Below the pieces are notes generated by a model. The model searched no databases, was not told where the DNA came from, and worked only from the letters and a program-made list of their open reading frames with translations. From contig NZ_AP025737.1 in assembly GCF_023734115.1 (NCBI RefSeq), forward strand, positions 1,426,001 to 1,490,000: 64,000 nucleotides of DNA. Reading direction: 5' to 3'. The translations under genes and the position numbers were made by a program. This DNA comes from Herbiconiux sp. L3-i23. Lineage in GTDB: Bacteria; Actinomycetota; Actinomycetes; Actinomycetales; Microbacteriaceae. This document shows, piece by piece, positions 3,991 through 30,374 of the stretch. Positions within the stretch are counted from its first letter, which is position 1, and every line of letters begins with the position of its first letter.

Positions 3991-3992
3991 GG

Positions 3993-4934
3993 TCAGGACC
4001 TCCTGGAGAGACGGACGATCACGAAGCTGAAGATCAGCATCACGAGGACGAAGACGAGCACGACCGCGGCGGCGTAGCTGGGGTCGAGGAACTGGAAGGC
4101 GAGGTTGTAGGCGTAGATGTTGAGCGTCTCGGTCGCCTGACCGGGCCCACCGCCGGTGATCACGTAGATCGGGTCGAAGGTGCGCATCGCCTCGATGAGG
4201 CGGGTTACCGCGGCGACCGCGATCACGGGACGCAGCGCCGGGAGGGTGATGCGCCAGAACCGCTGCCACGCGTTCGCGCCGTCGACCATCGCGGCCTCTT
4301 GCGTCTCGGTCGGCAGCCCGGAGAGGCCGGCGAGCACGATGAGGGCGATGAACGGAGTCCACTGCCACACGTCGACGAGCATCAGCGACGGCAGGGCGAG
4401 CACCGGATCCGACACCCACGGGATGCTCGGCAGACCGAAGAACGACCCGATCGTCGCGAAGAGGCCGAGATCCGGCTGGAACATGAGGCGCCACACCATC
4501 GCGATCGCGACCGGGGTGGCGATCATCGGGATGAGGAACAGGGCGCGGAGGAATCCGCGGCCCCGGAAGTGCTGGTTCAGCAGCAGCGCGTAGAGAACGC
4601 CGAGCACCAGCTCGACGGCGACGGAGCCGACCGAGTAGATGATCGTGCGCAGGGTCGCATCCCAGAAGCGCTGGTCGTTCGCGATGTCCACGAAGTTCTG
4701 TAGGCCGACGAATTCGCCGCCCTCCAGCGAGGCCGGCACGTCCTGGAACGCCATCGCGATGTTGTTGACCAACGGGTAGGCGACGAGGATGAGCAGCAGC
4801 CCGAGCGCCGGCCCGAGGAACGCGGCGCGGGTGCCCCACTCCTTCGGAAGCGCTCGGCGCCTCTTCGCGGGCGCAGGCGACGGATGGTCGCCCGAGATGC
4901 GCTGGCCCGCAGCGGCTTCGGTGGTGACTGTCAT
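3993..4934 (-). CDS. ABC sugar transporter permease (MalF type)
   Basis: This 313-residue membrane protein has a basic N-terminal cytosolic tail (about 35 residues), several membrane helices and the EAA loop EAAMVDGANAWQRFW followed by ITLPALRPV. It pairs with the downstream MalG-type protein to form the CUT1 import channel for the solute delivered by the lipoprotein encoded just upstream. A strong intercistronic hairpin separates it from the binding-protein gene. Confidence 0.9.
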   Translation of the reverse strand: MTVTTEAAAGQRISGDHPSPAPAKRRRALPKEWGTRAAFLGPALGLLLILVAYPLVNNIAMAFQDVPASLEGGEFVGLQNFVDIANDQRFWDATLRTIIYSVGSVAVELVLGVLYALLLNQHFRGRGFLRALFLIPMIATPVAIAMVWRLMFQPDLGLFATIGSFFGLPSIPWVSDPVLALPSLMLVDVWQWTPFIALIVLAGLSGLPTETQEAAMVDGANAWQRFWRITLPALRPVIAVAAVTRLIEAMRTFDPIYVITGGGPGQATETLNIYAYNLAFQFLDPSYAAAVVLVFVLVMLIFSFVIVRLSRRS

Positions 4935-5031: not shown

Positions 5032-6375
5032 TCAGCGTGCGGAGAGCGCGTTGAACGCCTCCGCCGCGGTCTCCACCGCAGCCGCCACGTCGCCGCCCTG
5101 AATGGCGGTGACGATCGCCGCGCCGATCGCGTCGCGGGCCTCGGGGACCTGCGCGATGGTCGGGTGCTGGGCGACCGCGTTCTGTCGCGAGCTGTCGAAC
5201 GCGTCGATCCACTCCTGCGGCAGCGTGTCGGGGAACTCGGTGATGCTGGTGCGGGCACCGGCGACGCCGTCCTCGGCCTGGGTCGCCTGGACGACCTCGG
5301 GGCTGGTGGCCCACTGCATGAACAGCCACGAGGCGCCCTGGTTCTCCGAGAAGTTCGACAGCGCGAGGTCCCAACCGTAGAACGCCTGTGTGTCGCCGCC
5401 GGGGCCCGACGGAACGGGCAGGAAGCCGACGTTCTCGGAGACGGTCGACTGCTCGGGGTCGAGCAGCTGCGGGGCGAAGACGCTGGAGTCGGGGAACATC
5501 GCGACGCGTCCCTGCTGGAACAGCGGCAGGATCTCCTGCCACGAGTTGTTCACGGCACCCTCGGGTCCGTTCTCGCGGACGAGGTCGCCGTAGTAGGTGA
5601 ACGCGTCGATGCCCTCAGCGGTATCGAAGGCGGCCTCGCCATCCTCGGTGTTCCACTGCGCGCCCTCGTTGTAGAGGAACGGTGTGAACTGGCTCGTCGC
5701 CGACGCGCCCTTGCCGCGGCCGGTGAAGCCGTACAGCTCGCCCGCGGCGGTGATCGCCTCCGCCGACGACTGCAGCTCGTCGAGCGTGGTCGGGGGAGTG
5801 AGGCCGAGGGCCTTGAACACGTCGGTGCGGTAGTAGAGCATCGTCGTCTCGATCTGGATCGGAACGCCGATCACCTCGTCGTCGATTGTGTCTGCGGCGA
5901 GCACGTCGGCCGAGAAGTCGTCGTAGTCGTAGTCCTCCGAGGTCAGCGACGGGTTGTCGATGAACTCGGAGAGGTCGGCGTACCAGCCGTTCTGCTGGAA
6001 GAGGCGACCCTCGGCGGTGGGGCCGGTCATGAAGACGTCGAGGTCGTCGGAACGCGCCGACAGGTTGACCTGCACGCGCTGACGGAACTGCTCCTCGGGC
6101 AGCGCGGTCACGTTGACGGTGATGCCGGTGAGGTCCTCGAACTCGGCGATGCGCGGCTCGATGGCCTGCTGCCACGGGTGCTGGTTGAGCAGCACCTCGA
6201 TGGTGGCGCCGTCGTAGCGCTCCCAGTCGAAGTCGCCGGTCGCGCCAGCGCCGTCGTCGGACGCGCCGCCGCCGTCACCACCGGCGCAGCCGGCGAGGAG
6301 GGCGGTCGAGGCGGTGATGGCGAGGGCGACGGTCGCGAACCGCGCCGACCTCCTCGCGGGGAACTTCGTGCTCAC
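5032..6375 (-). CDS. ABC transporter extracellular sugar-binding lipoprotein
   Basis: This 447-residue family 1 solute-binding protein has a basic signal (STKFPARRSARF), a hydrophobic stretch and the lipobox LLAGC, so it is a membrane-anchored lipoprotein outside the cell. The GTG start at 6375 is chosen because AAAGGAG sits 7 bases upstream; an ATG further up lacks this. The mature part contains family features such as GRVAMFPDSS and the tryptophan-rich GASWLFMQWATSPE. It is the first gene of the importer-kinase unit and feeds the MalF/MalG-type permeases. Confidence 0.9.
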   Translation of the reverse strand: MSTKFPARRSARFATVALAITASTALLAGCAGGDGGGASDDGAGATGDFDWERYDGATIEVLLNQHPWQQAIEPRIAEFEDLTGITVNVTALPEEQFRQRVQVNLSARSDDLDVFMTGPTAEGRLFQQNGWYADLSEFIDNPSLTSEDYDYDDFSADVLAADTIDDEVIGVPIQIETTMLYYRTDVFKALGLTPPTTLDELQSSAEAITAAGELYGFTGRGKGASATSQFTPFLYNEGAQWNTEDGEAAFDTAEGIDAFTYYGDLVRENGPEGAVNNSWQEILPLFQQGRVAMFPDSSVFAPQLLDPEQSTVSENVGFLPVPSGPGGDTQAFYGWDLALSNFSENQGASWLFMQWATSPEVVQATQAEDGVAGARTSITEFPDTLPQEWIDAFDSSRQNAVAQHPTIAQVPEARDAIGAAIVTAIQGGDVAAAVETAAEAFNALSAR

Positions 6376-6453
6376 GTGATTGCTCCTTTGGAATACGTGC
6401 ATCTGTGCTGACGCCTTGGGGTGCTGTGGTTGCAGACGTCTCGACGAGCGGAT

Positions 6454-6560
6454 GGCCGATTGAGTCCGCCCGACCGTCTTCGGCAAACCAAAGCGGCCGG
6501 GATGACTCCATGCTCATCGGCGATTGGACTCGATCACAGTGCCAAAACGAGGACATTGGA
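6454..6560. promoter_or_regulatory. candidate MocR operator region upstream of the ABC importer
   Basis: The 200-base gap between the regulator gene and the binding-protein gene contains GGCGATTGGACT (6519-6530), CACAGTGCCA (6535-6544), ATTGGA (6555-6560) and the related GGCCGATTGAGTCC (6454-6467). The first two elements recur in inverted orientation in the other control region of this locus (8031-8057). Shared half-sites at both promoters suggest binding by the local MocR-type regulator; this is inference. Confidence 0.45.
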
Positions 6561-6579
6561 TTGCGGATGCGGAGCCCCG

Positions 6580-8016
6580 TCACACGAGCGGCGGGCCGAG
6601 CGGAGAACCGCTCGGGTTCGCCGCCCCGCGGTCGTACTCCGTCCACGCGCGACCGAGCCGGGCGACTCCGTCAGCGAAAGCGGTGGCGTCGGCGCCGAGC
6701 GCGAGCCGGATGTAGGGGTCGCTCGCGCCGTCGGCCGAGAGCGAGTCTCCGGGCACGATCGCGACGCCCAGACGGCGCGCCGTCTCGGCGAACGGTCGGG
6801 AGGCGCCGTGCGGCATCCGCAGCCACAGCGACACCGCGCCGGCCGGCTCGGTGAGCTCGAAGTCGGGCAGCTCGCGGCGCACCACATCGACCGCCTCGGC
6901 GGTGCGCAGGTCGATCTCGCGGTGTCGTTGCGCCTTCACCTCGGGAAGCCGGCGCAGCAGCCAGGCCGAGAGCATCTGGCTGAGCAGCGGGGTGCCCAGG
7001 TCAGCGCGCGCCTTGGCACGGGAGAGGCGCAGGATCGCGTTCTCATCTCCGCGGATCCAGCCGATGCGCAAGCCTCCCCAGAACAGCTTGCTCATCGAGC
7101 CGACCGTGAAGACGGTCGTGTCACGGGCGAGCGCGGCGAGGTGCGGGGGAGCGTCGTCGCGCAGCAGGTGCCGCGAACTCGAATCCTCGATCACCGCACC
7201 CGAGAAGCCGCGCAGGCCCGAGGCGAGGCGGCGCAGCGAGTCGCCGTCGCAAACGAGACCCTCGGGCCCGAACGACGAGATCAGGTAGACCAGCGAGGGC
7301 TCCGACTTCGCCACCACGCCGAGCAGGGCCTGCTCGCCGCTACTCGACAGGGACCGGGCGCTCCGCACCACGACAGGCTCGCGGCGCACGAGGTCGAGCA
7401 TGCCGGGAGAGGTCGGGTCCTCGACGAGTACCGAGTCGCCGGTGTCGAGCAGGTGCTGGGTGAGCAACGACAGCGCCTGCTGGTCGCCGGTCGTGATGAG
7501 GATCTGCTCGGGCGAGGTGTGCAGGCCCTCCTCGCTGAACATGTCGGCGACCGCCCGGCGCAGCTCGAGCAACCCGAGGGCGGAGTAGCCGGTCTGCTCG
7601 AGCAGCGGCTCGGCCATGCCGTCGCCGAGCGCGACGATCGCGTCGCGCACCGCCGGTGCGGCCGGCAGGGTCGCGGTGGCGAGGTCGATCAGCTGCTCGC
7701 CGCCCGAGAGCGCGGCGCGACCGAGCGACTCCTGTTGGCTCGACCGCGACGATGCGTTGCGTTCGGCGCCCGCCACCCAGGTGCCGCTGCCCTGCTTGCT
7801 CGTCAGCACGCCATCCGAGCGGAGCATGTCGTAGGCGGCGACCACCGTGCTGCGTCCCACGGCGAGCGCGCGGGCCATGTGACGTTCGGCGGGGAGGATC
7901 GTTCCCGGTGCGAGATCGCCGCGGAGCACCGCGTTGCGGATGGCGATCGCGAGCCGCTGGTAGAGCGGACCCGAGTGGATCGTCCACTCGCCTACGGCAT
8001 CCAACACGTTGACCAC
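6580..8016 (-). CDS. MocR-type GntR regulator with aminotransferase-like domain
   Basis: This 478-residue protein has an N-terminal GntR winged helix (about residues 15-80, with LAPGTILPAER and the recognition helix LAVGRSTVVAAYDML). It is followed by a fold-type I aminotransferase-like domain. SMSKLFWGGLRIGWI holds the expected PLP-binding lysine. MocR proteins are PLP-responsive transcription factors and do not usually act as enzymes. It starts with GTG at 8016, lies between the importer operon and the divergent dehydrogenase gene, and probably controls both from the shared motifs at 6519 and 8031. Confidence 0.88.
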   Translation of the reverse strand: MVNVLDAVGEWTIHSGPLYQRLAIAIRNAVLRGDLAPGTILPAERHMARALAVGRSTVVAAYDMLRSDGVLTSKQGSGTWVAGAERNASSRSSQQESLGRAALSGGEQLIDLATATLPAAPAVRDAIVALGDGMAEPLLEQTGYSALGLLELRRAVADMFSEEGLHTSPEQILITTGDQQALSLLTQHLLDTGDSVLVEDPTSPGMLDLVRREPVVVRSARSLSSSGEQALLGVVAKSEPSLVYLISSFGPEGLVCDGDSLRRLASGLRGFSGAVIEDSSSRHLLRDDAPPHLAALARDTTVFTVGSMSKLFWGGLRIGWIRGDENAILRLSRAKARADLGTPLLSQMLSAWLLRRLPEVKAQRHREIDLRTAEAVDVVRRELPDFELTEPAGAVSLWLRMPHGASRPFAETARRLGVAIVPGDSLSADGASDPYIRLALGADATAFADGVARLGRAWTEYDRGAANPSGSPLGPPLV

Positions 8017-8030
8017 GTGGCCTCCTCAAC

Positions 8031-8057
8031 AGTCCAATCGCCATCGAATGGCACTGT
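8031..8057. promoter_or_regulatory. candidate MocR operator in the divergent control region
   Basis: AGTCCAATCGCC (8031-8042) is the exact reverse complement of the element at 6519. TGGCACTGT (8049-8057) is the reverse complement of the element at 6536. The intervening GCCATCGAATGGC is itself palindromic. The site lies in the 161-base gap between the divergently transcribed regulator and dehydrogenase genes. Confidence 0.45.
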
Positions 8058-8177
8058 CACCGGTGCCTCTCGACGGCAACTATGGCTAATGGTGGCCCCA
8101 TGCACAAATCATGCGGCCCTGTTCGCGCCCGGCGGTTCCGAGGCGTGGACTCGCGACTACGAGGGGTTTGACCGTCG

Positions 8178-9059
8178 ATGCAGATCGGATTGCTGGGACT
8201 CGGCAAGATGGGCGGCGGCATGGCGCTGCGCCTCGCGCAGGGCGGCCACGACGTGCTCGGTGTCGACCTCTCGGAGGAGTCGCGTCGGCGTGCCGAGGAC
8301 AACGGCGCCCGCACCTTCGGCGACCTCCGGTCGATGCTCGCCGCCCTCGACGGACCTCGCATCGTGTGGGTCATGCTCCCTGCCGGTCGACTGACCCGCG
8401 AAGCGGTCACGACCCTCGCCGGCCTGCTCTCGGAGGGCGACCTCGTCATCGACGGCGGCAACAGCGACTTCCGTGACGCACCCGGCCACGTCGAGACGCT
8501 GTCGGCCCGCGGCATCCGCTTTGCCGACATCGGGGTGAGTGGCGGCCAGTGGGGCTGGCAGAACGGCTACGGGCTCATGGTCGGCTCCGACGAGCCCACC
8601 TACCGCGAGATCGTCCCGATTCTCGACTCCCTCGCGGCCGAGGGCGGCTACTCGCGGGTCGGCGATGTCGGTGCCGGACACCTGGTGAAGGCCATCCACA
8701 ACGGCATCCAGTACGGGGTGCTCCAGGCCTACGCCGAGGGTTTCGCGCTGCTGAAGGCGCACCCCGAGGTCGACACGGTCGCCGCGATGTCGGCGTGGCA
8801 GGGCGGTAGTTCGATCCGGTCGTGGCTGCTCGAGCAGACCGTCGAAGCGCTCAAGGAGAACCCGACCCTCGACGGCGTCGGGTCGCAGGTGTCCGACTCG
8901 GGAATGGGGCGCTGGACCGCCGAAGAGGCGATCCGTCTCGCGGTGCCGACCCCCGTGCTGACCGCCGGGCTGCACGCGCGATTCGCGAGCCGCGCCGACG
9001 ACGACGCCGCGAAGCTGCTCGTCGCGGCCCGGGGCCGTATTGGCGGGCAGAAGTCGTGA
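8178..9059 (+). CDS. 6-phosphogluconate dehydrogenase-like, decarboxylating, short form
   Basis: This 293-residue enzyme belongs to the short GndA/YqeC class of NAD(P)+-dependent 6-phosphogluconate dehydrogenases. It oxidises and decarboxylates an aldonate-6-phosphate to a pentulose-5-phosphate. It shows the Rossmann start MQIGLLGLGKMGGGMA, the substrate loop DIGVSGGQWGWQNGYG, and the catalytic lysine and His-Asn in HLVKAIHNGIQYG. The long C-terminal domain of the classical enzyme is absent, as usual for this class. It overlaps the SIS isomerase gene by four bases (GTGA), so the two are coupled. The physiological substrate may be 6-phosphogluconate or an analogue made by the nearby FGGY kinase. 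Confidence 0.88.
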   Translation: MQIGLLGLGKMGGGMALRLAQGGHDVLGVDLSEESRRRAEDNGARTFGDLRSMLAALDGPRIVWVMLPAGRLTREAVTTLAGLLSEGDLVIDGGNSDFRDAPGHVETLSARGIRFADIGVSGGQWGWQNGYGLMVGSDEPTYREIVPILDSLAAEGGYSRVGDVGAGHLVKAIHNGIQYGVLQAYAEGFALLKAHPEVDTVAAMSAWQGGSSIRSWLLEQTVEALKENPTLDGVGSQVSDSGMGRWTAEEAIRLAVPTPVLTAGLHARFASRADDDAAKLLVAARGRIGGQKS

Positions 9060-14934: not shown

Positions 14935-14943
14935 GGATTGCAA

Positions 14944-15120
14944 CTCGTGTCGCATCGCGACGGGCCTGGCGGCCCTCCTCAGCGACCAGAGTGAGACCTG
15001 GTCATTGAGGAGGCCGTTCACGGCCGTCGCGAAATGACGGAGTTGCAGGTTCGCCGCTGTGGTGCACCTGGAACTCGTGTCGCATCGCGACGGGCCTGGC
15101 GGCCCTCCTCAGCGACCAGG
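14944..15120. repeat. family B: a lone right arm plus one complete copy
   Basis: A right arm (14944-14990, ending CCTCCTCAGCGACCAG) is followed by a complete B element (about 14999-15120). That element runs from CTGGTCATTGAGGAGGCCGT through a variable centre to a second right arm. It ends 7 bases before the stop of the membrane-protein gene on the minus strand. Confidence 0.85.
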
Positions 15121-15126
15121 TGGCGG

Positions 15127-16158
15127 TCAGAGGATGCCGAGCCAGGCGAGGAGGCCCACGGCCATCGACACGATCGGGAATGCCATCGACAGGATCGTGC
15201 CCGCGGACGGTCGGACGCGGAGGCGGCGGCCGGCGGAGGCGACGACCTGACGGTAGGCGTCGGCGTGGTCGTCCTGGTAGCGCGACGTCTGGCGTTGCAC
15301 CTTCGGCGCGAGCGCGTCGACGAGGGCGAGCACCGAGGCGAAGCGGCGCGGCCGCCACAGCTTCCACGGCGACCCCCGGTACAGCACCAGGCGGCTGCCG
15401 ACGAGTTCCACCTCGCAGTCCGACGCCACGTCGAGCAGCAGCGCCATCAGGTCGGGAGTGAACAGGTAGAGGGCGTCCCGCTCATAGCCTTCCGGGCAGA
15501 ACAGGGAGAAGGTCCGGTCGAAGTCTCCCTCGAGGCGCAGCCGCTGCGTCTGCAGGAATCGCGAGCCGGTCGTCCGCAGCACCCGCGAGCGGCGGTTGAG
15601 GAGAACGATGTGCGGCACCTCACGGTCGAGACGCAGACGCACGAAGCCCATCCGTCGCAGGGTGAAGCCGGGGATCGGGCCGAAGGTCCCCGCGTCGAAC
15701 TCGACGCCCCCGGCCTGAGGGGGCGAGCTGATCATGTCCGCCGTCATCCGGTTGTGCAGGATGTCGAGCGCGCTTCCGCCCGACCCGTAGATCGCCGACC
15801 GGTCCGCGTACTCGAGCCCATTGGCCGCCGCGGTGCGATCGAGGCGCACCTGGCGGGACGCGTTGCGCCAGATCAGCCACATCAGGAAGAGGGCGTAGGC
15901 GCCGGTGGCGATCAGGATCACGCCGTAGACGGAACGGTTCGCCTCCGGGCCGAGTCCCGCAAGCGGCAGGTAGATGTTGACCAGCACCGCCTGGCCGATG
16001 AGGTAGCCGCCGACGATCAGGGCGATCAGCCACCACTGGCGAGACGCCGGGACGCGGTGCGCCCGGTAGTAGCGCGACACGTCCGAGAGCGTCACCCGGC
16101 TGTGGAGCGCCGCGAGGTCGATGCGTCTGCCGGTGGCCGTCTCGGGCGTCTGCTGCAC
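15127..16158 (-). CDS. hypothetical membrane protein with three predicted helices
   Basis: I do not recognise this 343-residue protein. About 40 polar residues precede two close membrane helices (WWLIALIVGGYLIGQAVL and GVILIATGAYALFLMWLI). A soluble domain of about 200 residues rich in basic residues follows, with an LHNRMTADMI segment and repeated arginine strands. A C-terminal helix (AFPIVSMAVGLLAWLGI) ends the chain. The layout suggests a membrane-anchored cytosolic domain. It is flanked on both sides by family B repeats, which isolates it transcriptionally. Confidence 0.6.
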   Translation of the reverse strand: MQQTPETATGRRIDLAALHSRVTLSDVSRYYRAHRVPASRQWWLIALIVGGYLIGQAVLVNIYLPLAGLGPEANRSVYGVILIATGAYALFLMWLIWRNASRQVRLDRTAAANGLEYADRSAIYGSGGSALDILHNRMTADMISSPPQAGGVEFDAGTFGPIPGFTLRRMGFVRLRLDREVPHIVLLNRRSRVLRTTGSRFLQTQRLRLEGDFDRTFSLFCPEGYERDALYLFTPDLMALLLDVASDCEVELVGSRLVLYRGSPWKLWRPRRFASVLALVDALAPKVQRQTSRYQDDHADAYRQVVASAGRRLRVRPSAGTILSMAFPIVSMAVGLLAWLGIL

Positions 16159-16189
16159 GCAACGACCCTACGGCGCGGGCGGTTCTCCT

Positions 16190-16572
16190 CTGGTCATTGA
16201 GGAGGCCGTTCACGGCCGTCGCGAAATGACGCGGGCTGCAGGTTCCCCACAGTGGCGCACCTGGAACTCGTGTCGCATCGCGACGGGCCTGGCGGCCCTC
16301 CTCAGCGACCAGGTTGCGATCTGGTCATTGAGGAGGCCGTTCACGGCCGTCGCGAAATGACGCGGGCTGCGGATTCCCCACAGTGGCGCACCTGGAACTC
16401 GTGTCACATCGCGACGGGCCTGGCGGCCCTCCTCAGCGACCAGGTTGCGATCTGGTCATTGAGGAGGCCGTTCACGGGCGTCGCGAAACGACGCGGGCTG
16501 CGGATTCCCCACAGTGGCGCACCTGGAACTCGTGTCGCACCGCGACGGGCCTGGCGGCCCTCCTCAGCGACC
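16190..16572. repeat. family B, exact triple tandem with 131-bp period
   Basis: Three copies start at 16190, 16321 and 16452, so the period is exactly 131 bp. Each copy is an imperfect long hairpin with left arm CTGGTCATTGAGGAGGCCGT and right arm ending CCTCCTCAGCGACC(A/G)G. Copies differ by a few substitutions (for example TCGCAT, TCACAT and TCGCAC near the right arm), so they are homogenised but not identical. The array fills the gap between the ABC ATPase stop and the start of the membrane-protein gene. Confidence 0.92.
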
Positions 16573-16578
16573 GGGCCA

Positions 16579-17364
16579 TCAGTGGAGGAGGCGGGTCAAG
16601 AAGTCTTTTGTGCGTTGTTCGCGTGGGGTTGTGAAGAGGGCGGTCGGGGTGCCGCGCTCCACGACGACGCCGCCGTCGAGGAAGGCGACCTCGTCGGCGA
16701 CCTCGCGGGCGAAGGACAGCTCGTGGGTGACGACCACCATCGTCCAACCTTCGCGGGCCAGCTCGGACATGATGGTCAGCACGTCGCCGACGATCTCCGG
16801 GTCGAGCGCCGACGTCGGCTCGTCGAAGAGCAGCAGCTTCGGCCGTAGCGCGAGGGCGCGGACGATGCCGACGCGCTGCTGCTGACCGCCCGACAGCTGG
16901 AACGGGTACACGTCGCGCTTCGACTCGAGACCCACCCGGGCGAGCAACGCCTCCGCGTCGGCGACTGCCTCCGCGCGCGGCCGCTTCTGCACGACGACGG
17001 GGCCCTCGATCACGTTTTCGAGCACCGTCTTGTGCGGGAACAGGTTGTAGTGCTGGAACACCATGCCCGACGCGTCCCGCAGCCGCGCCCGCTGAGCCGC
17101 TCGGGCACGATTCGAGGCGGGCTCGCCGAAGTCGATGCGATCGTCGTCGAGCTCGATGACACCGGAATCCGGCGGCGTGAGCGCGTTCAGGGCGCGCAGC
17201 ACGGTCGTCTTGCCCGACCCGGACGGGCCGATCAGCACGAGGACCTCCCCGCGCCGCACCTCGAGGTCGACGCCCTTCAGCACCTCGAGCGCGCCGAACG
17301 ATTTGTGCAGGTCGGTGGCGCGCAGCAGCGGAGCGCGCGATGAGGAATCAGACGTGGGCGACAT
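16579..17364 (-). CDS. polar amino acid/cystine ABC transporter ATPase
   Basis: This 261-residue ATPase has Walker A IGPSGSGKTTVLRAL, Q-loop MVFQHYNLFPH, signature LSGGQQQRVGIVRAL, Walker B LLLFDEPTSALDPE and switch His in VVTHELSF. It is of the GlnQ/HisP/TcyC type that energises uptake of polar amino acids. It is the last gene of a three-gene set (binding protein, permease, ATPase) and overlaps the permease end by 17 bases. The family B triple tandem begins just beyond its stop and may end the transcript. Confidence 0.93.
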   Translation of the reverse strand: MSPTSDSSSRAPLLRATDLHKSFGALEVLKGVDLEVRRGEVLVLIGPSGSGKTTVLRALNALTPPDSGVIELDDDRIDFGEPASNRARAAQRARLRDASGMVFQHYNLFPHKTVLENVIEGPVVVQKRPRAEAVADAEALLARVGLESKRDVYPFQLSGGQQQRVGIVRALALRPKLLLFDEPTSALDPEIVGDVLTIMSELAREGWTMVVVTHELSFAREVADEVAFLDGGVVVERGTPTALFTTPREQRTKDFLTRLLH

Positions 17365-21659: not shown

Positions 21660-22062
21660 CCGCCCGTTGAGCGGAGCGATACGAAGGGCTGCCGAGTTGG
21701 TGTGCCTTCATATCGCTGCGCTCAACGGGCGGCGGGGTGTCGTCTGGTCATTGAGGAGGCCGTTCACGGCCGTCGCGAACTGACGTGAGCGTTGCGCAGT
21801 TGGCGAGTCGTGTCGCATCGCGACGTGCCTGGCGGCCCTCCTCAGCGACCAGGCCTCTGGTGCCTTCGTATCGCTGCGCTCAACGGGCGGCGGGTTGCGT
21901 CTGGTCATTGAGGAGGCCGTTCACGGCCGTCGCGAAATGACGTGAGTTGCAGGTTTCCCGCTGTGGCGCAGTTGGGGAGTCGTGTCGCATCGCGACGGGC
22001 CTGGCGGCCCTCCTCAGCGACCAGGTCGAGGTGCCTTCGTATCGCTGCGCTCAACGGGCGGC
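21660..22062. repeat. mixed array of family A and B repeats
   Basis: In order: an A inverted pair (about 21660-21688 and 21705-21733), a complete B (about 21744-21852), an A (about 21862-21890), a second complete B (about 21900-22024) and an A (about 22034-22062). The B copies differ in their centre (spacing about 109 versus 125 bp) while their arms are conserved. The array fills almost the whole gap between the HAD gene and the FAD-oxidase promoter. Confidence 0.9.
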
Positions 22063-22087
22063 GGGCGGCGGGTGGCGTCTGTAGTCG

Positions 22088-22149
22088 GGTTGCAACCGGG
22101 TTGCAGGGGGCGGCGCCCCGCAGTGGGGTCGGGCGGTGGTCGCGAGGCT
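22088..22149 (+). promoter_or_regulatory. SARP-type heptamer direct repeat at the FAD-oxidase promoter
   Basis: Two identical heptamers GGTTGCA at 22088-22094 and 22099-22105 are separated by 4 bases (ACCG). This is the 7+4+7 spacing used by SARP regulators. Thirty-eight bases further on, GAGGCT (22144-22149) keeps the A and T positions of a -10 box. The same layout occurs before the first SARP gene and before the membrane protein at 29727. Confidence 0.6.
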
Positions 22150-22199
22150 GTGGGCATCAGCTTCCGGCTCGGTCGAGCCGCCTCACGAAAGGTCAGCCC

Positions 22200-23570
22200 A
22201 TGTTCCTCGATTTCCGCGCCCGTCGCCTGCGCGACGAACTCGCCGCCGCCGTCGACGGACCCGTCTTCCTCCCCGGATCCGCCGGCTACCGCGACGAGGT
22301 CACCGGACACAATCTCTCCGCCGTCCGCCGACCCGCGGCCGTCGTCGGCGCCACCTCCGCGGAGGACATCGCCTTCGCGGTGCAGATCGCGCGCCGCTAC
22401 GAACTCGGCGTCACCATCAAGGCCACCGGTCACGGCGCACTCACCGAACCCGACGGGACCCTGCTCATCACCACAGCACGGATGCGATCGGTCGAGATCG
22501 ACCCCGAACGCGGCACCGCGAGGATCGCGGCCGGCGCCACCTGGCGCGACGTGATCGACGCCGCCGCCCCGCACGGCCTCGTGCCCCTCTCCGGCTCCCA
22601 CGACTCCGTCGGCGCGGTCGGCTACACCCTCGGCGGTGGGCTCAGCCCCCTCGCGCGCACCTTCGGATTCGCCGCCGACCACGTCCGCGCCTTCCAGGTC
22701 GTCACCAGCGAAGGACGTCACCTCACCGTGGACGCCGAAAGCCACCCCGACCTGTTCTGGGCGCTGTGCGGTGGGAAGGGAGGGCTCGCCCTCGTCAGCG
22801 AGATGACCATCGAACTCGTCCGCCTGGACAGCGTGTACGGCGGGCCGCTCATCTGGGGCGCCGACGATGCCGCCGCCGTTCTGCGGGCCTACTCGGCGTG
22901 GACTCCAACGCTCCCCGATGAGGTCACCACCTCGATCAGCCTGCTGCGCATGCCCGACCTGGACGCGGTCCCCGCCCCGCTACGGGGCCGATTCGCCGTG
23001 CAGCTCGATGTCGCCGTCGTCGCCGCACCCGAGGTCGCCGAAGCCTTGCTGGCGCCCATGCGTCTCGCCGCACGTCCGATGATCGACATGGCCGGAGTCG
23101 TTCCGCCGCAGGCACTCTGCCAGCCCGGCGCACCGATGCCGCAGTGGGACAAGGGGGTACTGCTCGGCTCGCTCCCCGACAGCGCCGTCGGTACTCTGCT
23201 CGCGCACGCCGGGCCGCAGCGGGAGCTGCCGTTCCTCGCCGTGCAGATCCGACACCTCGGCGGTGCACTGGCCGCGTCCCGAGCCAACGCGGTCGGCGGT
23301 CGTGACGCCGCATACCTGCTCTTCCTCGTCGGAGCGCCGGTGCCGCAGCTCATCGAGACCAGCATTCCCGCCGCAGCCGACGCGCTCCTCGATGCGATGT
23401 CGCCGTGGACGACCGGTGGAACGCTGGCGAACTTCGTCGGTACCCCGAGGACCGAATCCGAGCTCGCGGCAGCCTGGTCGACCGAGATCGGCGAGCGCCT
23501 CGACGAGGTGCGTCGACGCTGGAACGGCGACGGTGTGCTCGCGTGGGACGACGCCTACGAGCGGGTCTGA
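22200..23570 (+). CDS. FAD-linked oxidase (berberine-bridge/6-hydroxynicotine oxidase type)
   Basis: This 456-residue flavoenzyme has a PCMH-type FAD-binding domain (about residues 30-200). It shows IKATGHGALTEPDG, GATWRDVIDAAAPHGL and SVGAVGYTLGGGLSPLARTFG; the His in ATGHG sits where bicovalent or monocovalent flavin attachment occurs in this family. A substrate domain and a short C-terminal BBE-like segment (LAWDDAYERV) follow. Such enzymes oxidise alcohols, amines or sugars with O2. No signal peptide is seen, so it is likely cytosolic. It is the first gene after a SARP-type box and precedes the two SARP genes, which probably control it. Confidence 0.88.
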   Translation: MFLDFRARRLRDELAAAVDGPVFLPGSAGYRDEVTGHNLSAVRRPAAVVGATSAEDIAFAVQIARRYELGVTIKATGHGALTEPDGTLLITTARMRSVEIDPERGTARIAAGATWRDVIDAAAPHGLVPLSGSHDSVGAVGYTLGGGLSPLARTFGFAADHVRAFQVVTSEGRHLTVDAESHPDLFWALCGGKGGLALVSEMTIELVRLDSVYGGPLIWGADDAAAVLRAYSAWTPTLPDEVTTSISLLRMPDLDAVPAPLRGRFAVQLDVAVVAAPEVAEALLAPMRLAARPMIDMAGVVPPQALCQPGAPMPQWDKGVLLGSLPDSAVGTLLAHAGPQRELPFLAVQIRHLGGALAASRANAVGGRDAAYLLFLVGAPVPQLIETSIPAAADALLDAMSPWTTGGTLANFVGTPRTESELAAAWSTEIGERLDEVRRRWNGDGVLAWDDAYERV

Positions 23571-23573
23571 ACC

Positions 23574-23942
23574 GTGACCGACACGGCGTCCGGCGTGGGT
23601 CTCGGCGGCGGCGACTTCTTCGCCGCCGAGGGGGAGCGCGTGCTCGACGACCTCAGCCTTCCGATGCTGCTCCTGCCGCTCGGCGAGGTCGACGTGCTCG
23701 CCGTCGACGTCGTCGAGCACCGGATCGAGCTCGGCGTCGCGAGCCCGGTGCGGCGTCCGGTGGTCGAGACCGCCGCTCTCCTGTGCGCCCTGCTCGCCGC
23801 ACCGCGGACCTCGCGCCTGTCGTTCGGCAGGACGGAGGCCGGTGCGTGGCGGTGCTCGGCCCGATGCACCGGCCCTGGCGGGGAGTGGACGATCGCGATC
23901 GACCTGCCAGGGCTCTCGGGACGAAGGTTGCACCAGCGTTAA
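23574..23942 (+). CDS. small orphan protein between the oxidase and the SARP genes
   Basis: A GTG start 3 bases after the oxidase stop opens 122 codons (VTDTASGVGLGGGDFFAAEG). The protein is acidic in its first half and contains LPMLLLPLGEVDVLAVDVVEHRIELGV split by charged residues. It has two cysteines close together (CSARC) and no clear domain. Tight spacing suggests translational coupling to the oxidase. Its last codons overlap the candidate SARP box of the next promoter. Function unknown. Confidence 0.55.
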   Translation: MTDTASGVGLGGGDFFAAEGERVLDDLSLPMLLLPLGEVDVLAVDVVEHRIELGVASPVRRPVVETAALLCALLAAPRTSRLSFGRTEAGAWRCSARCTGPGGEWTIAIDLPGLSGRRLHQR

Positions 23943-23987
23943 ACGCCCTCACCTCGGTGCTCAGGCGGTCGATGCGTTTCGTAGCGT
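23926..23987 (+). promoter_or_regulatory. SARP-type heptamer repeat and -10 box before the first SARP gene
   Basis: GGTTGCA (23926-23932), 4 bases (CCAG), then the degenerate heptamer CGTTAAA (23937-23943). Exactly 38 bases later lies TAGCGT (23982-23987), a plausible -10, with the ATG at 24017. The arrangement suggests autoregulation; it is inferred from pattern and spacing only. Confidence 0.5.
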
Positions 23988-24016
23988 CTGAGCGTCCCAG
24001 CACAAGGAGCTTCTCC

Positions 24017-26791
24017 ATGACGATCGCCGTCGCCCTGTCCGGACCGCTCACCGTCACGGCGGAGGGCGCACCGTTGCGGGTGAAAGGCGCGATCCCGTCC
24101 GCCATCCTCGCGCGGCTCGCCCTGTCGGCCGGTGAGTACGTCGACACGGACACCCTCATCGGCGATGTGTGGGTCGACGCGCCGGAGAAGGCGCTCACGA
24201 GTCTCCGCGCGCACATCTCACGGCTCCGGGACCTCCACCCGGCACTCGGGTCGGCTCTGCAGGGCAGCCGCCGCGGTTACCTGCTCGACCTCGCCCGCGA
24301 CCGGGTCGACGTGCTGCGCTTCCGGGACGGAGTGGGGGCACTCGATCAGTGGGGAGTCCGCGGCGACTCCGACGCGCGATTGCGGGTGCTCGTCGAACTC
24401 GAAGCGATGACGGACGGCGAGCCGCTCGCGGGTCTCGATGCGTTCCCATTCGTGGCGCCGGTCCGGGCCGCTCTGCGGTCGGAGCGACGGATGGTGCTCG
24501 AAGAGCTCGCCGAGCAACGGTTGGAGCGCGGCGAGAACGCCCTCGCGATCGCGCTGCTCGCCGATCTCGTGGAGCAGCATCCCACCCACGAGCGGCCGGT
24601 GCGCCTGCTCGCCGTCGCGCTCGCGCGAGTCGGGCGCACGACCGACGCGACGGAGACGGTCGACTCGTTCGAGCGTCGCCTGGCAGCGCTCGACGGGATT
24701 CCGCTCTCCGGGCGCATGCGCGACCTCCGTCAGGCGATCCTGCGCCGGGATCCGGAAATCGTGCAGGGCGGAGGTGCGAACGCCGCCACCGTGAAGCGCA
24801 CAGGGGTTCCCATCCCACTCACCCGCTTCATCGGCCGACGCGCCGAAGTGCAGTCGGTTCAGGCGCTTCGCCGCAAGCACCGCGTCATCACCATCGTCGG
24901 GCCGGGCGGCGTCGGCAAGACACGACTCGCCGTCGAGATCGCGCGATCGGCGACGACCGCCGACGACGACGACCAGTGGATGGTCGACCTCGCCCCCGTG
25001 CCGGTCGAGGGCGTCCTCGGCGAGATCGCCGTCGTCGTCGGCGCACGCGAAGCCGGGATCGAGGCTGTGCTGCGCCGGGTCACGGGACGGCGGGGGCTGT
25101 TGATCCTCGACAACGCCGATCTGCTGATCGGCGCCGTGTCCGCCATCGTCGACGAGCTCTCGGCGCGGGCACCCGAGCTCACCATCCTGACCACGAGTCG
25201 GGAGTCCCTGCGCCTGCCGCACGAACGGGTCGTGGTCGTCGGCCCCATGCTGGGCGACGACGCGGCGGACGCGCTCCGCATCTTCGAGCAGCGCGCCGCC
25301 GACGCGACGGGTGCGACTCTCGGAGACTCGGGACTCGAGGCAGCCAGTCAGCTCTGCGATCTGCTCGACGGCATCCCGCTTGCTCTCGAGATCGCCGCCG
25401 CGCGCCTCGACGTCTACTCGGTGGAAGAGGTGCGGGACGCCGTCGCCCGTCACGTCCGGCTCGACGGCGGTGGCGGCGGCCGTCACGCGAGCGTCGAGGC
25501 CGCCGTCGAATGGAGTCTCACCCTGGTGACCGCGCCGCAGCGGGACCTCCTCGCGGGGCTCGCCCGCTTCGTCGGCCCCTTCACCCCGACGGCCGTGGAA
25601 GGCGTGCTCGGCACCTCTCCCGACGCAACCGATCGGCTCATCCAGGACCTCGTCGAGAAGTCGCTCGTCGCCGTCGTGCGCGGTGATGCGGGCGAACGGT
25701 CCTGGCGGCTGCTCGAATCGGTGAAGTCGGTCGCCCGGCGCATCCCCGCCGCCGACGACGTGCTCCGGCTGGCGCACCGCGACTGGTTCGCCCGCTTCGC
25801 GCGCGAGGTCGCTCCCACGTTGCGCACATTCGACGCCGCTCGCGGCCGTGCCCTCTTCGATCTCCACCGTGCCGACCTCGACACCGCCCTCGGCCGCGCG
25901 ATCGATGACGGCGACCGCGAGGCCGCGCTCAGTATCGCGGGGTCGCAGGCGAACCACTGGTTCGCCCGCGGCATGCTCGTCGACGGCCGGGCCACCATCG
26001 AGCGCGCGCTCGCCGTCGAGGGGACGGCGGCGCCGCAGACCGAAGCGGATGCGCTTCTCGGCGCCTGCATCCTCGCCTATCAGGGTGGCGACGCGGCGGC
26101 GGCGTTCGACTACATCGGCGCTGCGGGGGCGAAGGGGCTCGAGGCGGGCGACGCGGCGGTCCCGCTGGTCGCACTCGCGCAGGAGGCGTACGGGCGGTCG
26201 CTGTTCGGTGCGGTCCATGCCGCGGACGCATTGTTGGAGGAGGCGGATGCCCTGCTCCCCGCCGCCCCCGACTGGGCGAAGAGCGAGTACCACATGTGCC
26301 GTGGCCAGATGCTCCGCGCCGCCGGCGACCTCGGCGGTGCGCTCGACGCCCTCACCGAGGCTCACCGCATCAGCGCGAGCATCGGTTACGCCTGGATCGT
26401 CGCCTCCTCGCTGTACGTGACGGGCAAGGTCCTCGTCGACGCTCGTCGCCCACGCCGTGCGATCGCGGTTCTGCGGTCGGGGTTCGACGGCTGCATCGGT
26501 TCCGACCAGCAGACGAGCGCACTCGCGCTGCTGCACGTCATCGCCGGCGCGTGCGCCTTCGTCGAACGGCACGAGGAGGGCGCGGCGCTGTTCGGCGCGA
26601 TCGACCGGATGGGCGTGCGTCACGACTACAACCCGGTGATCGCCGAAGGCGACGACGCGAAGAAGCGTCGCGACGCCGTCGCCGCCGGGTTGACCGGTGA
26701 GGAATTCGACCGCGCCTACCGCAGCGGGGGCCGGATGGGTGTGAACGAGGTGCGCGCGGTGATCGCCGCGCTTCCCCAGGAGACGTCGTGA
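24017..26791 (+). CDS. SARP-family regulator with BTAD, NB-ARC-like ATPase and TPR-like domains
   Basis: This 924-residue regulator is of the large AfsR-like class. Residues about 1-90 form an OmpR-type winged helix (LVDTLIGDVW-like segment, SLRAHISRLRDL, GYLLDL). A bacterial transcriptional activation domain follows (about 95-250, DGEPLAGLDAFPFVAP). An NTPase module carries Walker A GPGGVGKTRLAVEI (about 295) and Walker B GLLILDNADLL. The C-terminal 350 residues are helical and repeat-like. Family members bind heptamer direct repeats near -35 and recruit RNA polymerase. ATG at 24017 follows AAGGAG. A close paralogue starts 44 bases after its stop. Confidence 0.88.
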   Translation: MTIAVALSGPLTVTAEGAPLRVKGAIPSAILARLALSAGEYVDTDTLIGDVWVDAPEKALTSLRAHISRLRDLHPALGSALQGSRRGYLLDLARDRVDVLRFRDGVGALDQWGVRGDSDARLRVLVELEAMTDGEPLAGLDAFPFVAPVRAALRSERRMVLEELAEQRLERGENALAIALLADLVEQHPTHERPVRLLAVALARVGRTTDATETVDSFERRLAALDGIPLSGRMRDLRQAILRRDPEIVQGGGANAATVKRTGVPIPLTRFIGRRAEVQSVQALRRKHRVITIVGPGGVGKTRLAVEIARSATTADDDDQWMVDLAPVPVEGVLGEIAVVVGAREAGIEAVLRRVTGRRGLLILDNADLLIGAVSAIVDELSARAPELTILTTSRESLRLPHERVVVVGPMLGDDAADALRIFEQRAADATGATLGDSGLEAASQLCDLLDGIPLALEIAAARLDVYSVEEVRDAVARHVRLDGGGGGRHASVEAAVEWSLTLVTAPQRDLLAGLARFVGPFTPTAVEGVLGTSPDATDRLIQDLVEKSLVAVVRGDAGERSWRLLESVKSVARRIPAADDVLRLAHRDWFARFAREVAPTLRTFDAARGRALFDLHRADLDTALGRAIDDGDREAALSIAGSQANHWFARGMLVDGRATIERALAVEGTAAPQTEADALLGACILAYQGGDAAAAFDYIGAAGAKGLEAGDAAVPLVALAQEAYGRSLFGAVHAADALLEEADALLPAAPDWAKSEYHMCRGQMLRAAGDLGGALDALTEAHRISASIGYAWIVASSLYVTGKVLVDARRPRRAIAVLRSGFDGCIGSDQQTSALALLHVIAGACAFVERHEEGAALFGAIDRMGVRHDYNPVIAEGDDAKKRRDAVAAGLTGEEFDRAYRSGGRMGVNEVRAVIAALPQETS

Positions 26792-26834
26792 GGGTCCTAT
26801 GGTGGTGCCCACGTGGCAGGAAGGAGCCGGTTCG

Positions 26835-29564
26835 ATGTCGTATCGGCTGACCCTGTTCGGCTCGTTCGCGGCAACCGTCGACGGTCGGCCGCTCCCGATC
26901 CGCGGCGAGATCCCGCGCGCGATCGTGTCGCGCCTCGCTTTCAGGCCCGGGGAACGGGTGACGCCGCAGGAGCTGATCGACGACGTCTGGCGCGAGGCGC
27001 CCTCGGGCGTGGTGTCGAGCCTTCGCGCCCACCTGTCGCGTCTCCGTGCCGAGGGGTGGAGCGCCGTTCTCAGTGGCGGGCGGAACGGCTACGCGCTCGA
27101 GGTGGACTCCGCCGATGTTGACGTCGCCCGGTGGCGGCAGCTTCTCGAGACCCGCGGCGAGGGGCGGATCGAGGGGCTCATCGAAGCCGAGTCGCTGTGG
27201 CGCGGGCAGCCCTTCGCCGGCCTCGACGCGCCGTTCGCCGAGGCGAGTCGGCCCGAGTTCCTGCGCCTCCGACGTGAAGCGATGCTCGAGATCGCCGATG
27301 CGCGGCTCGAGACGGGGGAGAACGTCGACGCTTCGCTCGACCTCGAACGGCTGCTTCGCGACCTCCCCGGCGACAGTGAACTCACGCGTCGCTACGCGGC
27401 CGCTCTCGCCGGAGCAGGCCGCGCCGGGGACGCCCTCGACGTCATCGACGCGGTGATGGGCGACCTAGGCGATCACGCACGCGGGCCGCTCGCCGAGCTG
27501 CGCCGATCGATCGTGCGACAGGATCCCGTTCTGCTCGGACGCACCGACGATCGCCATGCGACCGTCGAGCGGACCGGAATCCCCGTACCTCTCACCCGCT
27601 TCGTCGGTCGTGCCGGTGAGCTCGATCAGGTCGCCACGGCCCGCGCCGAGGCGAGACTCGTGACCCTCGTGGGGCCGGCGGGAGTCGGCAAGACCCGCCT
27701 GGCCGCAGAAGCCGCCCGCCGGGCGGGAGCGGACGTCGACGAGCAGCAGTGGCTCGTCGACCTCACCGTCATCGTCGACCCCGGCCATGTGCTCGGTGTC
27801 GTCGCCGACGTGGTCCGCGCCGGGTCCGACACCCTCGACGCCGTCGCCGCGCGACTGACCGGGAGACGGACCCTCCTCATCCTCGACAACGCCGAACACG
27901 TCCTCGGAGCGGTCGCCTCCCTCGCCAGCCGGTTGCTCGGGCGCTGCGAGGGGCTCGCCGTCATGGTCACGAGCCGAGAAGCGTTGCGGATGCCGGGGGA
28001 GCGGGTCGTTCCCGTCGCTCCGTTCGTCGGCGACGCCGCGCCCGACGCGGTCCGGCTCTTCCTCGATCGCGCCCGCGACAGTTCGGGGCTGTCGCAGTGG
28101 GACGACCACAGCATGCGCGAGATCTCGGCGCTCTGCCGCGACCTCGACGGTCTTCCGCTCGCCCTGGAGCTCGCCGCGGCTCGACTCGACGTGCTGAGTC
28201 TCGCGGAGGTCGCCGACTCCGTCCAGCGGGGCGGCACGGACGCGGGGCGACACGGCTCGCTCGACAGCGCGCTGGGGTGGAGCCTCGACCTGCTGAGCCC
28301 GCCCGAGGTCGACATGCTCACCCAGCTCGCCCGGTTCGCGGGGTCGTTCGGCCTCGACGCGGTGGCGGGGATCTGCGTACCCGCTGAGGGCGCGGACGCC
28401 CGCGAGCTAGCCGCGGCGCTGGCCCGGAAGTCCCTCGTCACCCCTCTCGGCACGGACACCGGCGCCCGCCGGTTCCGCCTGCTCGACTCGGTGCGTCGGT
28501 ACGTCCGGCAGCGCGACACGCGGCAGGACGCCCACCAGTGGCGGGACCGGCATGCGGCCTGGTTCGCCGACTGGATTTCGGGCATCGAAGAGCAGATGCG
28601 CACCGCGGAGAACGCGAGGGCACGCACCCTTCTCGGCGCCTATCGAGCCGACCTGCACGCCGCCGTCGATCACGCAGTGGAGACCGGCGACCGGGCGACA
28701 GCGGTCCGACTGCTCGCCGTTCTCGCGTGGTACTGGTTCGAGCGCGGCCTCCGCGTCGACGGGCTCGACACCGCCGAGCGGGTCCTCGCCATGCCCGGCG
28801 AGCGCGACCCCGCCCGAGAGGCGCGTGTCCTGCGGGCATGCGCCTACATGGCCGCCGTCGGTGCGGACGAACGACAGGTGGCCCGGTACATGTCGCGCAT
28901 GCGCGACGCGGCGGCGGCGTCCGACGACGCGGCCGAACGGGTGCTCGCGGCGACGATGAGCGGCTACGTCGCCGCGGTCGCCGGCGAGGCCGATCAGGCC
29001 GACGCCTATCTCACGCATGCCACCGCCGAGATCGCGGCGGCGGGTGACTCACTGCCCATCTGGGCTCGCGTGGACGAATTGATGGTGCGAGGAGATGTGC
29101 TCCGAGCGCTCGGCCGGCCCTCGCAGGCGCTGACCAGCACGAGCGAGGCGTACCGAGTGTCCGTCGAAGCGGGCGACGCGTGGGGCGCGCGCAGCGCCTG
29201 CTACGTCACCGGCAAGGCCCTCGTCGACGTGCGGCGCGGCAAGGAGGCGGTTGGGATCCTGCGAAGCGGCGCGATCCGGTCGCTCGAGGCCGAAGACGCG
29301 TCGTCCGCTCTCGCCGCGATCAACGTCATCGCCGCCGCCTGCCACGTCCTCGGCCGCGACGACGACGCGGTGACCATCTATTCGGCGATCGACGTCCTCG
29401 GGGCGCGGCACGGGTATTCGGCGCTGGGGTCCGATCCCGAGCACACGGAACGGCACCGGGCCGCGGCGAGCGCGGCGCTCGATCGAGACGATCTGGCCGC
29501 CGCCACGCAGCGCGGAGCGGACCTGTCGCTCATGGAGCTGATGCGGCTCGTCACCACGTTCTGA
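26835..29564 (+). CDS. second SARP-family regulator, paralogue of the preceding gene
   Basis: This 909-residue protein repeats the architecture of its neighbour: winged helix (YRLTLFGSFAATVDGRPLP), BTAD (WRGQPFAGLDAPFAEA), NTPase (GPAGVGKTRLAAEAA, TLLILDNAEHVL) and a helical C-terminus. The two align along their length (for example the shared VERTGIPVPLTRF/VKRTGVPIPLTRF joint before the ATPase), so they arose by tandem duplication. The start at 26835 (MSYRLTLFG) is preferred over one 36 bases upstream because AGGAAGGAG sits in front of it. The two genes probably form one transcript. Heterodimerisation or opposing signals are possible but unproven. Confidence 0.88.
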   Translation: MSYRLTLFGSFAATVDGRPLPIRGEIPRAIVSRLAFRPGERVTPQELIDDVWREAPSGVVSSLRAHLSRLRAEGWSAVLSGGRNGYALEVDSADVDVARWRQLLETRGEGRIEGLIEAESLWRGQPFAGLDAPFAEASRPEFLRLRREAMLEIADARLETGENVDASLDLERLLRDLPGDSELTRRYAAALAGAGRAGDALDVIDAVMGDLGDHARGPLAELRRSIVRQDPVLLGRTDDRHATVERTGIPVPLTRFVGRAGELDQVATARAEARLVTLVGPAGVGKTRLAAEAARRAGADVDEQQWLVDLTVIVDPGHVLGVVADVVRAGSDTLDAVAARLTGRRTLLILDNAEHVLGAVASLASRLLGRCEGLAVMVTSREALRMPGERVVPVAPFVGDAAPDAVRLFLDRARDSSGLSQWDDHSMREISALCRDLDGLPLALELAAARLDVLSLAEVADSVQRGGTDAGRHGSLDSALGWSLDLLSPPEVDMLTQLARFAGSFGLDAVAGICVPAEGADARELAAALARKSLVTPLGTDTGARRFRLLDSVRRYVRQRDTRQDAHQWRDRHAAWFADWISGIEEQMRTAENARARTLLGAYRADLHAAVDHAVETGDRATAVRLLAVLAWYWFERGLRVDGLDTAERVLAMPGERDPAREARVLRACAYMAAVGADERQVARYMSRMRDAAAASDDAAERVLAATMSGYVAAVAGEADQADAYLTHATAEIAAAGDSLPIWARVDELMVRGDVLRALGRPSQALTSTSEAYRVSVEAGDAWGARSACYVTGKALVDVRRGKEAVGILRSGAIRSLEAEDASSALAAINVIAAACHVLGRDDDAVTIYSAIDVLGARHGYSALGSDPEHTERHRAAASAALDRDDLAAATQRGADLSLMELMRLVTTF

Positions 29565-29593
29565 CCGGCGCCGCAGCGAGCCCGCCAGTCCAC

Positions 29594-29655
29594 GGTTACA
29601 GCCGGATTGCAGGCCGGTCCTTGCGACTCCGCGACCCGCGCCGCGCTCCTACCGT
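29594..29655 (+). promoter_or_regulatory. SARP-type heptamer repeat and -10 box before the membrane-protein gene
   Basis: GGTTACA (29594-29600), 4 bases (GCCG) and GATTGCA (29605-29611) form a 7+4+7 direct repeat. TACCGT (29650-29655) follows after exactly 38 bases, as at the first SARP promoter. It is placed 116 bases before the ATG at 29727. Confidence 0.58.
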
Positions 29656-29726: not shown

Positions 29727-30374
29727 ATGACCACCACGGCCCCCGTCGCCGTCCCCGCCGCCCGGCACACCTCCGCAGTGGAAGCCCCTGCACCGACGCG
29801 CGACCGGCGATTCGGTCCCCGCGTCACCGGCGCTGTCTTCGCGATCGGCGGCGCCCTCTACTCGATCAGCCACGCACTGAACCTGCTCGGCTCGACCGGC
29901 ATGAACAGTGCTCCCCACGAGATCGCGGCGAAGTACCTGTTCGGCATCGGCGCTCTCACCATGATGGCGAGTGCCGGCGCGCTGCTGCGCATGTTCCGCA
30001 ACTCGCCGACCGGTCTCATCGGGACCGGCTTGCTCTGGTTCGGGATGCTGTTCATCGCCCTGTCCGCCTACTCGCAGCTCTACATCCTCCCGGTCGTCGG
30101 GTGGGAGACCTTGGGAGAGATCGATGAGCGGGCGTGGATCCCCGGACTGCTCGCGATGCCCGCCGTGCTCGGCGGACCTGTCCTGATCGCGATCGCCGGG
30201 CTCCGTCATCGCGTGGTCCCTGTTCCGGTCGCCATCGCGTTCTTCGTCGCGACGGTCGCGTTCCTCGCGCAGCCGGCGATCCCCGGTTCGCTGGCTCCGA
30301 TCATGATCGGCACCACCATCGTCTTCGGTGCAGGCTACGCCTGGATCGGGATCCGAGCCCGTCGGTCCGCGTGA
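29727..30374 (+). CDS. hypothetical integral membrane protein, likely SARP target
   Basis: This 215-residue protein has a polar N-terminus of about 30 residues and then six predicted membrane helices (for example VTGAVFAIGGALYSISHAL, LTMMASAGALLRMF and PVAIAFFVATVAFLAQ), ending in RARRSA. I do not recognise the family; it has no obvious transporter or enzyme motif. ATG at 29727 follows TGAGGAG. It closes the SARP island, and its promoter carries the same heptamer repeat as the oxidase promoter. Confidence 0.65.
   Translation: MTTTAPVAVPAARHTSAVEAPAPTRDRRFGPRVTGAVFAIGGALYSISHALNLLGSTGMNSAPHEIAAKYLFGIGALTMMASAGALLRMFRNSPTGLIGTGLLWFGMLFIALSAYSQLYILPVVGWETLGEIDERAWIPGLLAMPAVLGGPVLIAIAGLRHRVVPVPVAIAFFVATVAFLAQPAIPGSLAPIMIGTTIVFGAGYAWIGIRARRSA

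Follow-up and report, generated by a model that had tools for sequence, protein, structure and literature searches.

Within a 64,000-nucleotide stretch of the genome of Herbiconiux sp. L3-i23, a member of the Microbacteriaceae (contig NZ_AP025737.1, positions 1,426,001 to 1,490,000 of the forward strand; this whole stretch is called the window below), two adjacent genes encode large regulators of the SARP family, SARP1 and SARP2, and form an island together with the genes for a FAD oxidase, a small protein and a membrane-type protein. Three promoters of this island have a common layout in which a box, consisting of two directly repeated heptamers separated by four bases, precedes a -10-like hexamer at a distance of 38 bases. 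This regulatory layout is real and conserved. The genes and elements of the island, in the order of their window coordinates, are the following:

22088..22105, + strand: heptamer box GGTTGCA-ACCG-GGTTGCA, ahead of the FAD oxidase gene (pattern match)
22144..22149, + strand: GAGGCT, a weak -10-like element (nAGnnT type) 38 bases past the FAD box (sequence reading)
22200..23570, + strand: FAD_binding_4 oxidase, 456 aa (Pfam PF01565, 82.8 bits)
23574..23942, + strand: small protein, 122 aa, with a GTG start right behind the FAD stop (open reading frame)
23926..23943, + strand: heptamer box GGTTGCA-CCAG-CGTTAAA, ahead of SARP1, overlapping the end of the small-protein gene (pattern match, orthologous boxes)
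23982..23987, + strand: TAGCGT, -10 element 38 bases past the SARP1 box (sequence reading)
24017..26791, + strand: SARP1, large SARP, 924 aa (BTAD 57.1 bits, cut-off 22.1; orthologues; tree)
26835..29564, + strand: SARP2, paralogue of SARP1, 909 aa (BTAD 41.6 bits, cut-off 22.1; S2 clade)
29594..29611, + strand: heptamer box GGTTACA-GCCG-GATTGCA, ahead of the membrane-type protein gene (pattern match)
29650..29655, + strand: TACCGT, -10 element 38 bases past this box (sequence reading)
29727..30374, + strand: hydrophobic membrane-type protein (called by eye), 215 aa (orthologues with the same promoter layout)

The three boxes had been proposed in a preliminary description of this DNA, and all of their coordinates were verified, as was the claim that TAGCGT and TACCGT follow the second heptamer after exactly 38 intervening bases.

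SARP1 comprises a winged-helix-like start, the BTAD, a P-loop NTPase-like part and a long C-terminal region. The Trans_reg_C model (OmpR-type winged helix) scored 24.1 bits with SARP1 and 23.9 bits with SARP2, slightly below its cut-off of 26.2; AAA models matched both proteins under their own cut-offs, zero TPR models were listed among the Pfam matches, and a P-loop motif, GPGGVGKT, is recognizable by eye in the large SARP. Neither protein belongs to the AfsR equivalog of NCBIfam (91.6 and 75.0 bits, respectively, against a cut-off of 1430). In the phylogenetic tree, SARP1 and SARP2 belong to separate clades, both with high support (97/96 and 100/100) and both with members in several genera; the tree does not resolve how the two clades connect. 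Homologues of SARP1 (E <= 1e-80) are present in 15 of 398 genomes of the family. The SARP2 gene lies 43 nt downstream of SARP1, presumably in the same operon.

Spacing of the box and the -10 element

In the window, a loose pattern that allows up to three mismatches in the heptamer pair has seven matches against 2.36 expected, and seven or more were found in 4 of 100 shuffles, which is marginal, so this pattern was set aside as evidence. A strict core, TTRMA-N6-TTRMA, has three matches where 60 Markov simulations of 64 kb gave a mean of 0.017; the complete assembly contains four matches, and zero for the reversed control pattern. Three of these matches lie inside the 7.5-kb island, and the fourth is without a TAnnnT hexamer at 37-39 bases. 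Because the strict core was picked after the sites were known, it was tested on sequence outside the window, in relatives that were chosen by SARP homology or by the heptamers alone, with no -10 element required.

The spacing recurs in these relatives. Among 53 deduplicated heptamer pairs from SARP-bearing Microbacteriaceae loci, a pooled set that includes a 68%-complete genome, TAnnnT starts at 37, 38 and 39 bases in 5, 24 and 4 cases, respectively, compared to a mean of 0.075 per other offset. By contrast, the 50 pairs taken from genomes that do not encode this SARP include none at 38 and two at 37, and none of five pairs in distant SARP loci has TAnnnT at 37-39. The remaining 20 sites of the SARP set contain a second class of hexamer, nAGnnT, at 38 in seven cases and at 39 in four (mean 0.17 elsewhere). 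GAGGCT of the FAD gene falls in this class, so the earlier remark that it retains the A and the T at the equivalent position describes a pattern that is seen in 11 of these 20 sites.

The spaced box also tracks the SARP within the genus. Five genus genomes encode a close SARP1, and of their 33 strict pairs, 20 have TAnnnT at 37-39, versus 0 of 7 in the three genomes without it (the 68%-complete genome has 1 of 4). Strict pairs outnumber matches to the reversed control by 33 to 8 in the five SARP1 genomes, with 11 versus 22 in the other four.

In 23 of the 33 TAnnnT sites, ATG or GTG is found 6-7 nt past the hexamer, in a leaderless-like arrangement that supports the -10 element independently of the box. 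A start 7 nt past the hexamer, as these leaderless relatives suggest, would place the box at approximately -68 to -51, with the center at about -59.5. No -35 element is detectable in the boxed promoters: the best match to TTGACA scores 2.24 versus 2.26 in shuffled spacers, and no element at 16-19 nt is enriched.

Orthologous promoters and the wider regulon

In a weighted scan for the layout, the training sites score 25.7-38.8 and 1 Mb of simulated sequence (one strand) has no match above 12. In the S1 clade, that of SARP1, the box and TAnnnT are immediately upstream of 8 of 11 SARP genes, including those of Microbacterium oleivorans and another Microbacterium; in two more (genomes G233 and G419), the box precedes a protease gene located just 5' of SARP1, and in the last one (locus L058) the second heptamer, at 38, is degenerate, recognized by eye and under the threshold of the scan. 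The membrane-type protein, for which the Pfam search gave zero family matches, is seldom encoded: among 199 family genomes it was found in one, the window's own, and among eight chosen genomes in one, G233. In its two orthologues, from G233 and M. oleivorans, with 51 and 50% identity, the gene is preceded by the box at the 38-base distance. One of them was found via protein similarity in a SARP island and the other via its box.

For FAD-type genes, the genus itself offers weaker evidence. In a Rhodoglobus locus picked by SARP homology, the SARP adjoins a FAD oxidase of 33% identity with a variant box, GATTGCT-GGTTGCT, that scores 19.4 and is followed by TAGCGT after 38 bases. One-to-one orthology of the FAD genes proved too strong an assumption, since three of the four boxed FAD genes in the genus encode short proteins that were found through the box; the one in G005 is apparently frame-broken. 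The heptamers, whose absence from orthologous promoters the preliminary description had named as grounds for abandoning the pattern, and the spacing are kept ahead of SARP1, the membrane-type protein and, in other genomes, some FAD-type genes, the spacing sometimes being 37 or 39. The window's oxidase itself scored 346.9 bits with the NCBIfam model BagK_FevA1, under the cut-off of 800. The small protein encoded behind it had zero matches in the Pfam search and is 31-35% identical to three counterparts located 5' of SARP1 in relatives. The FAD box lies just past one of the clusters of dispersed repeat modules (14939-16581, 21702-22074, 37082, 37221 and 52026-52314; some measuring about 130 nt and arranged in tandem), the core of which, CGCATCGCGACGGGCCTGGCGGCCCTCCTC, is present in 10 copies in the window, one with a mismatch.

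A gene for an HtrA-like trypsin/PDZ lipoprotein protease is present in 10 of 25 SARP-locus sequences, and a strong box precedes its start in seven of these (L057, gene 2487-4133; L059, L061, L064, L070, L071 and L157); the box is weak in L072 (score 12.9) and was not detected by the scan in L069 and L162. The window's genome has no match to this protease at E <= 1e-20. In L061 (genome G006), the frames of SARP2 (6120-8859) and of the protease (459-2101) are split, through either assembly error or decay. In L157, a second, weaker box at 1783 is followed by TAGCGT and, after seven bases, by the ATG of a short frame that lies just 5' of SARP1 and overlaps the next box, and in L067, upstream of 7961 on the minus strand, a CGTTGCG-GCAA-CGTTGCG repeat was seen by eye before a more distant SARP.

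Altogether, the layout is common to promoters in Naasia, Microbacterium and other genera of the Microbacteriaceae, and the gene families that have it are SARP1, the small protein, the HtrA-like protease, small lipoproteins, the membrane-type protein, FAD-type proteins, an alpha/beta hydrolase, DUF4870 proteins and surface proteins, export being judged by eye from the N-termini. The compact putative regulon that had been proposed for the island, with an oxidase, the regulators and a membrane protein, is wider in the relatives, where it takes in the protease, lipoproteins, hydrolase and DUF4870 proteins.

The DUF4870-type genes (L091, L099, L102, L108 and L149; Pfam was checked for the L149 protein only) have the heptamer pair with nAGAAT at 39, except that L149 has TAnnnT at 39. 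Three of these sites have, in addition to nAGAAT at 39, TAnnnT at gap 7, near the classical SARP distance, and are the only ones in the set with that spacing; possibly, these are dual promoters.

Possible mode of action

The interpretation that we favor, with a probability of roughly 0.75 based on the sequence comparisons, is that the neighboring large SARP or SARPs bind the box as their operator and activate transcription from a class-I-like upstream position. It is suggested by the form of the box, by the apparent autoregulation of the SARP genes, by the spaced box tracking the SARP and by the missing -35 element. A dimer of SARP1, or of SARP1 and SARP2, would contact both heptamers along a single face of the helix, in a head-to-tail arrangement, and, centered at approximately -59.5, would hold RNA polymerase from upstream, presumably via the C-terminal domain of the alpha subunit, at promoters that consist of a -10 element without a -35 element. 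The SARP1-SARP2 pair would be autoregulated by this circuit, the targets in the window's genome would also include the FAD oxidase with its small neighbor gene and the membrane-type protein, and those in relatives would be several exported- or membrane-looking proteins, most often the HtrA-like protease lipoprotein. The similar sequences of SARP1 and SARP2 at the putative recognition helix, which was placed by eye from the SARP structure, suggest that both may bind the same heptamer. The Rhodoglobus SARP, with a different putative helix, is associated with TTGCT heptamers, and G123 retains SSLRA yet has TTGCG; covariation of helix and heptamer was dropped because there are too few cases.

Several observations weigh against activation by the SARPs from the box. 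Specificity for the SARP lies in the spacing only and not in the heptamer pair: RTTGCA-N5-RTTGCA, a stricter form of the pair, is present in 103 of 398 family genomes. These include 95 of the 383 genomes without this SARP but only 8 of the 15 that encode it, the other seven having no such match, so the pair alone says little and was rejected as a SARP marker. Nine of the 53 pairs match neither -10 class at 37-39, and the counts overstate independence because many of the sites belong to orthologous genes in closely related species. The weighted scan had no hits at the SARP loci L058, L060, L062, L063, L066, L067, L069, L073, L074 and L075; in 37 upstream regions of more distant SARPs, enrichment at 38 is absent, so extension of the spacing to these proteins was dropped. 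Of the 33 FAD matches that nine genomes of the genus contain (some of them gene pieces), the strict box adjoins only 4. Finally, all three promoters of the window are non-leaderless, so that their transcription starts rest on analogy.

A more elaborate form of SARP activation, which we put forward only tentatively, is that the tandem SARP1 and SARP2 act together as a heteromer in class I activation, each on one of the two heptamers at -59.5. Their NTPase and C-terminal parts would then respond to the state of the envelope or to protein quality, in line with the HtrA-like protease, the lipoproteins and the membrane-type protein, and the small neighbor protein would perhaps be the ligand. If so, the SARPs would govern an envelope-response regulon that has no connection with antibiotic production.

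Alternatively, the SARP pair could bind the box yet repress or act dually while another factor activates. Position alone is no proof of activation, and the second heptamer of the SARP1 promoter is degenerate (TTAAA or TTGAA in the window, G341, G004, G003 and G006), as tuned feedback would have it; however, we consider this scenario unlikely because the box is upstream of the expected polymerase core contacts, the promoters are without a -35 element, and the weak GAGGCT-type -10 elements mostly occur with intact boxes, as activation predicts. Slightly less probable still is recognition of the box by a DNA-binding protein other than a SARP, the SARP genes being mere members of the regulon. Such a protein would account for boxes at genes distant from the SARP locus and for heptamer pairs in genomes without the SARP, the binding of which to the box is, after all, a prediction; but it would not be expected from the association of spaced boxes with SARP1 in the genus, from the box ahead of most S1-clade SARP genes or from the SARP operator form. 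A sigma-factor promoter, such as one of the ECF type, with the heptamers as part of its upstream element, is a highly improbable alternative. Many of the -10 elements do read TAnCGT, and C occupies -14 in 28 of 33 sites versus 194 of 438 background TAnnnT; however, TAnCGT is frequent among all TAnnnT of these loci (119/438), the region at 16-19 nt is not enriched in any -35-like element, and we know of no sigma -35 element that resembles a direct repeat with an 11-bp period at a distance of 38 bases.

Implications and comparison with known systems

SARPs have been described as binding near the -10 element, over the -35 region, and mostly as switching antibiotic clusters. Here, a SARP-type box occupies a nearly fixed, more upstream position in several genera of Microbacteriaceae, ahead of genes with largely exported- or membrane-looking products. 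This natural set of promoters with a fixed spacing and no -35 element allows one to ask whether SARPs use two geometries, and the box with its spacing can serve as a search motif for the regulon in unstudied genomes. In the openly licensed literature, we found such a promoter geometry described for no SARP and no report of such a regulon in Microbacteriaceae.

The preliminary description had stated that SARPs bind heptamer repeats with an 11-bp period, in agreement with the published accounts (PMC10936776, PMC10972967), and the boxes have this form. They do not have the spacing of the classical SARP operator, in which the 3' repeat is 8 bp from the -10 element, over the -35 region (PMC10936776). 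The case of AfsR at afsS in Streptomyces coelicolor resembles the present one in that a large SARP with additional C-terminal parts acts on two direct repeats with an 11-bp period and on suboptimal promoter elements; it differs in that the AfsR box is centered at -29.5 (PMC10936776), whereas here the distance is 38 bases, the center would be at approximately -59.5 and the heptamer is TTGCA-like.

A precedent is PimR, a SARP-LAL regulator of Streptomyces natalensis, whose site at pimM is clear of the -35 region (PMC3367932) and for which its authors proposed class I activation (PMC3367932, PMC5930380). In PimR, however, three repeats with the consensus CGGCAAG lie in a protected region 93 nt from the start, at a single target in an antifungal cluster (PMC3367932, PMC5930380), whereas here there are two TTGCA-type repeats at a nearly fixed 38 bases from the -10 element (about 50 nt from the probable start) and several targets, and a biosynthetic cluster is not seen in the island; the boxes thus differ from the distal PimR type. 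The suggestion that the 38-base distance would be new accordingly holds in part: it exceeds the classical spacing, but the location of a SARP site beyond the -35 region already has a precedent in PimR, although with another distance (PMC3367932). A further, possible parallel is with class I CAP/CRP promoters, where the activator site is centered at -61.5, upstream of the polymerase (PMC10936776); the center here would be at approximately -59.5 by the probable start; these activators, however, belong to another protein family and recognize sites of another symmetry, and the contact with the alpha C-terminal domain is, in the present case, a predicted one.
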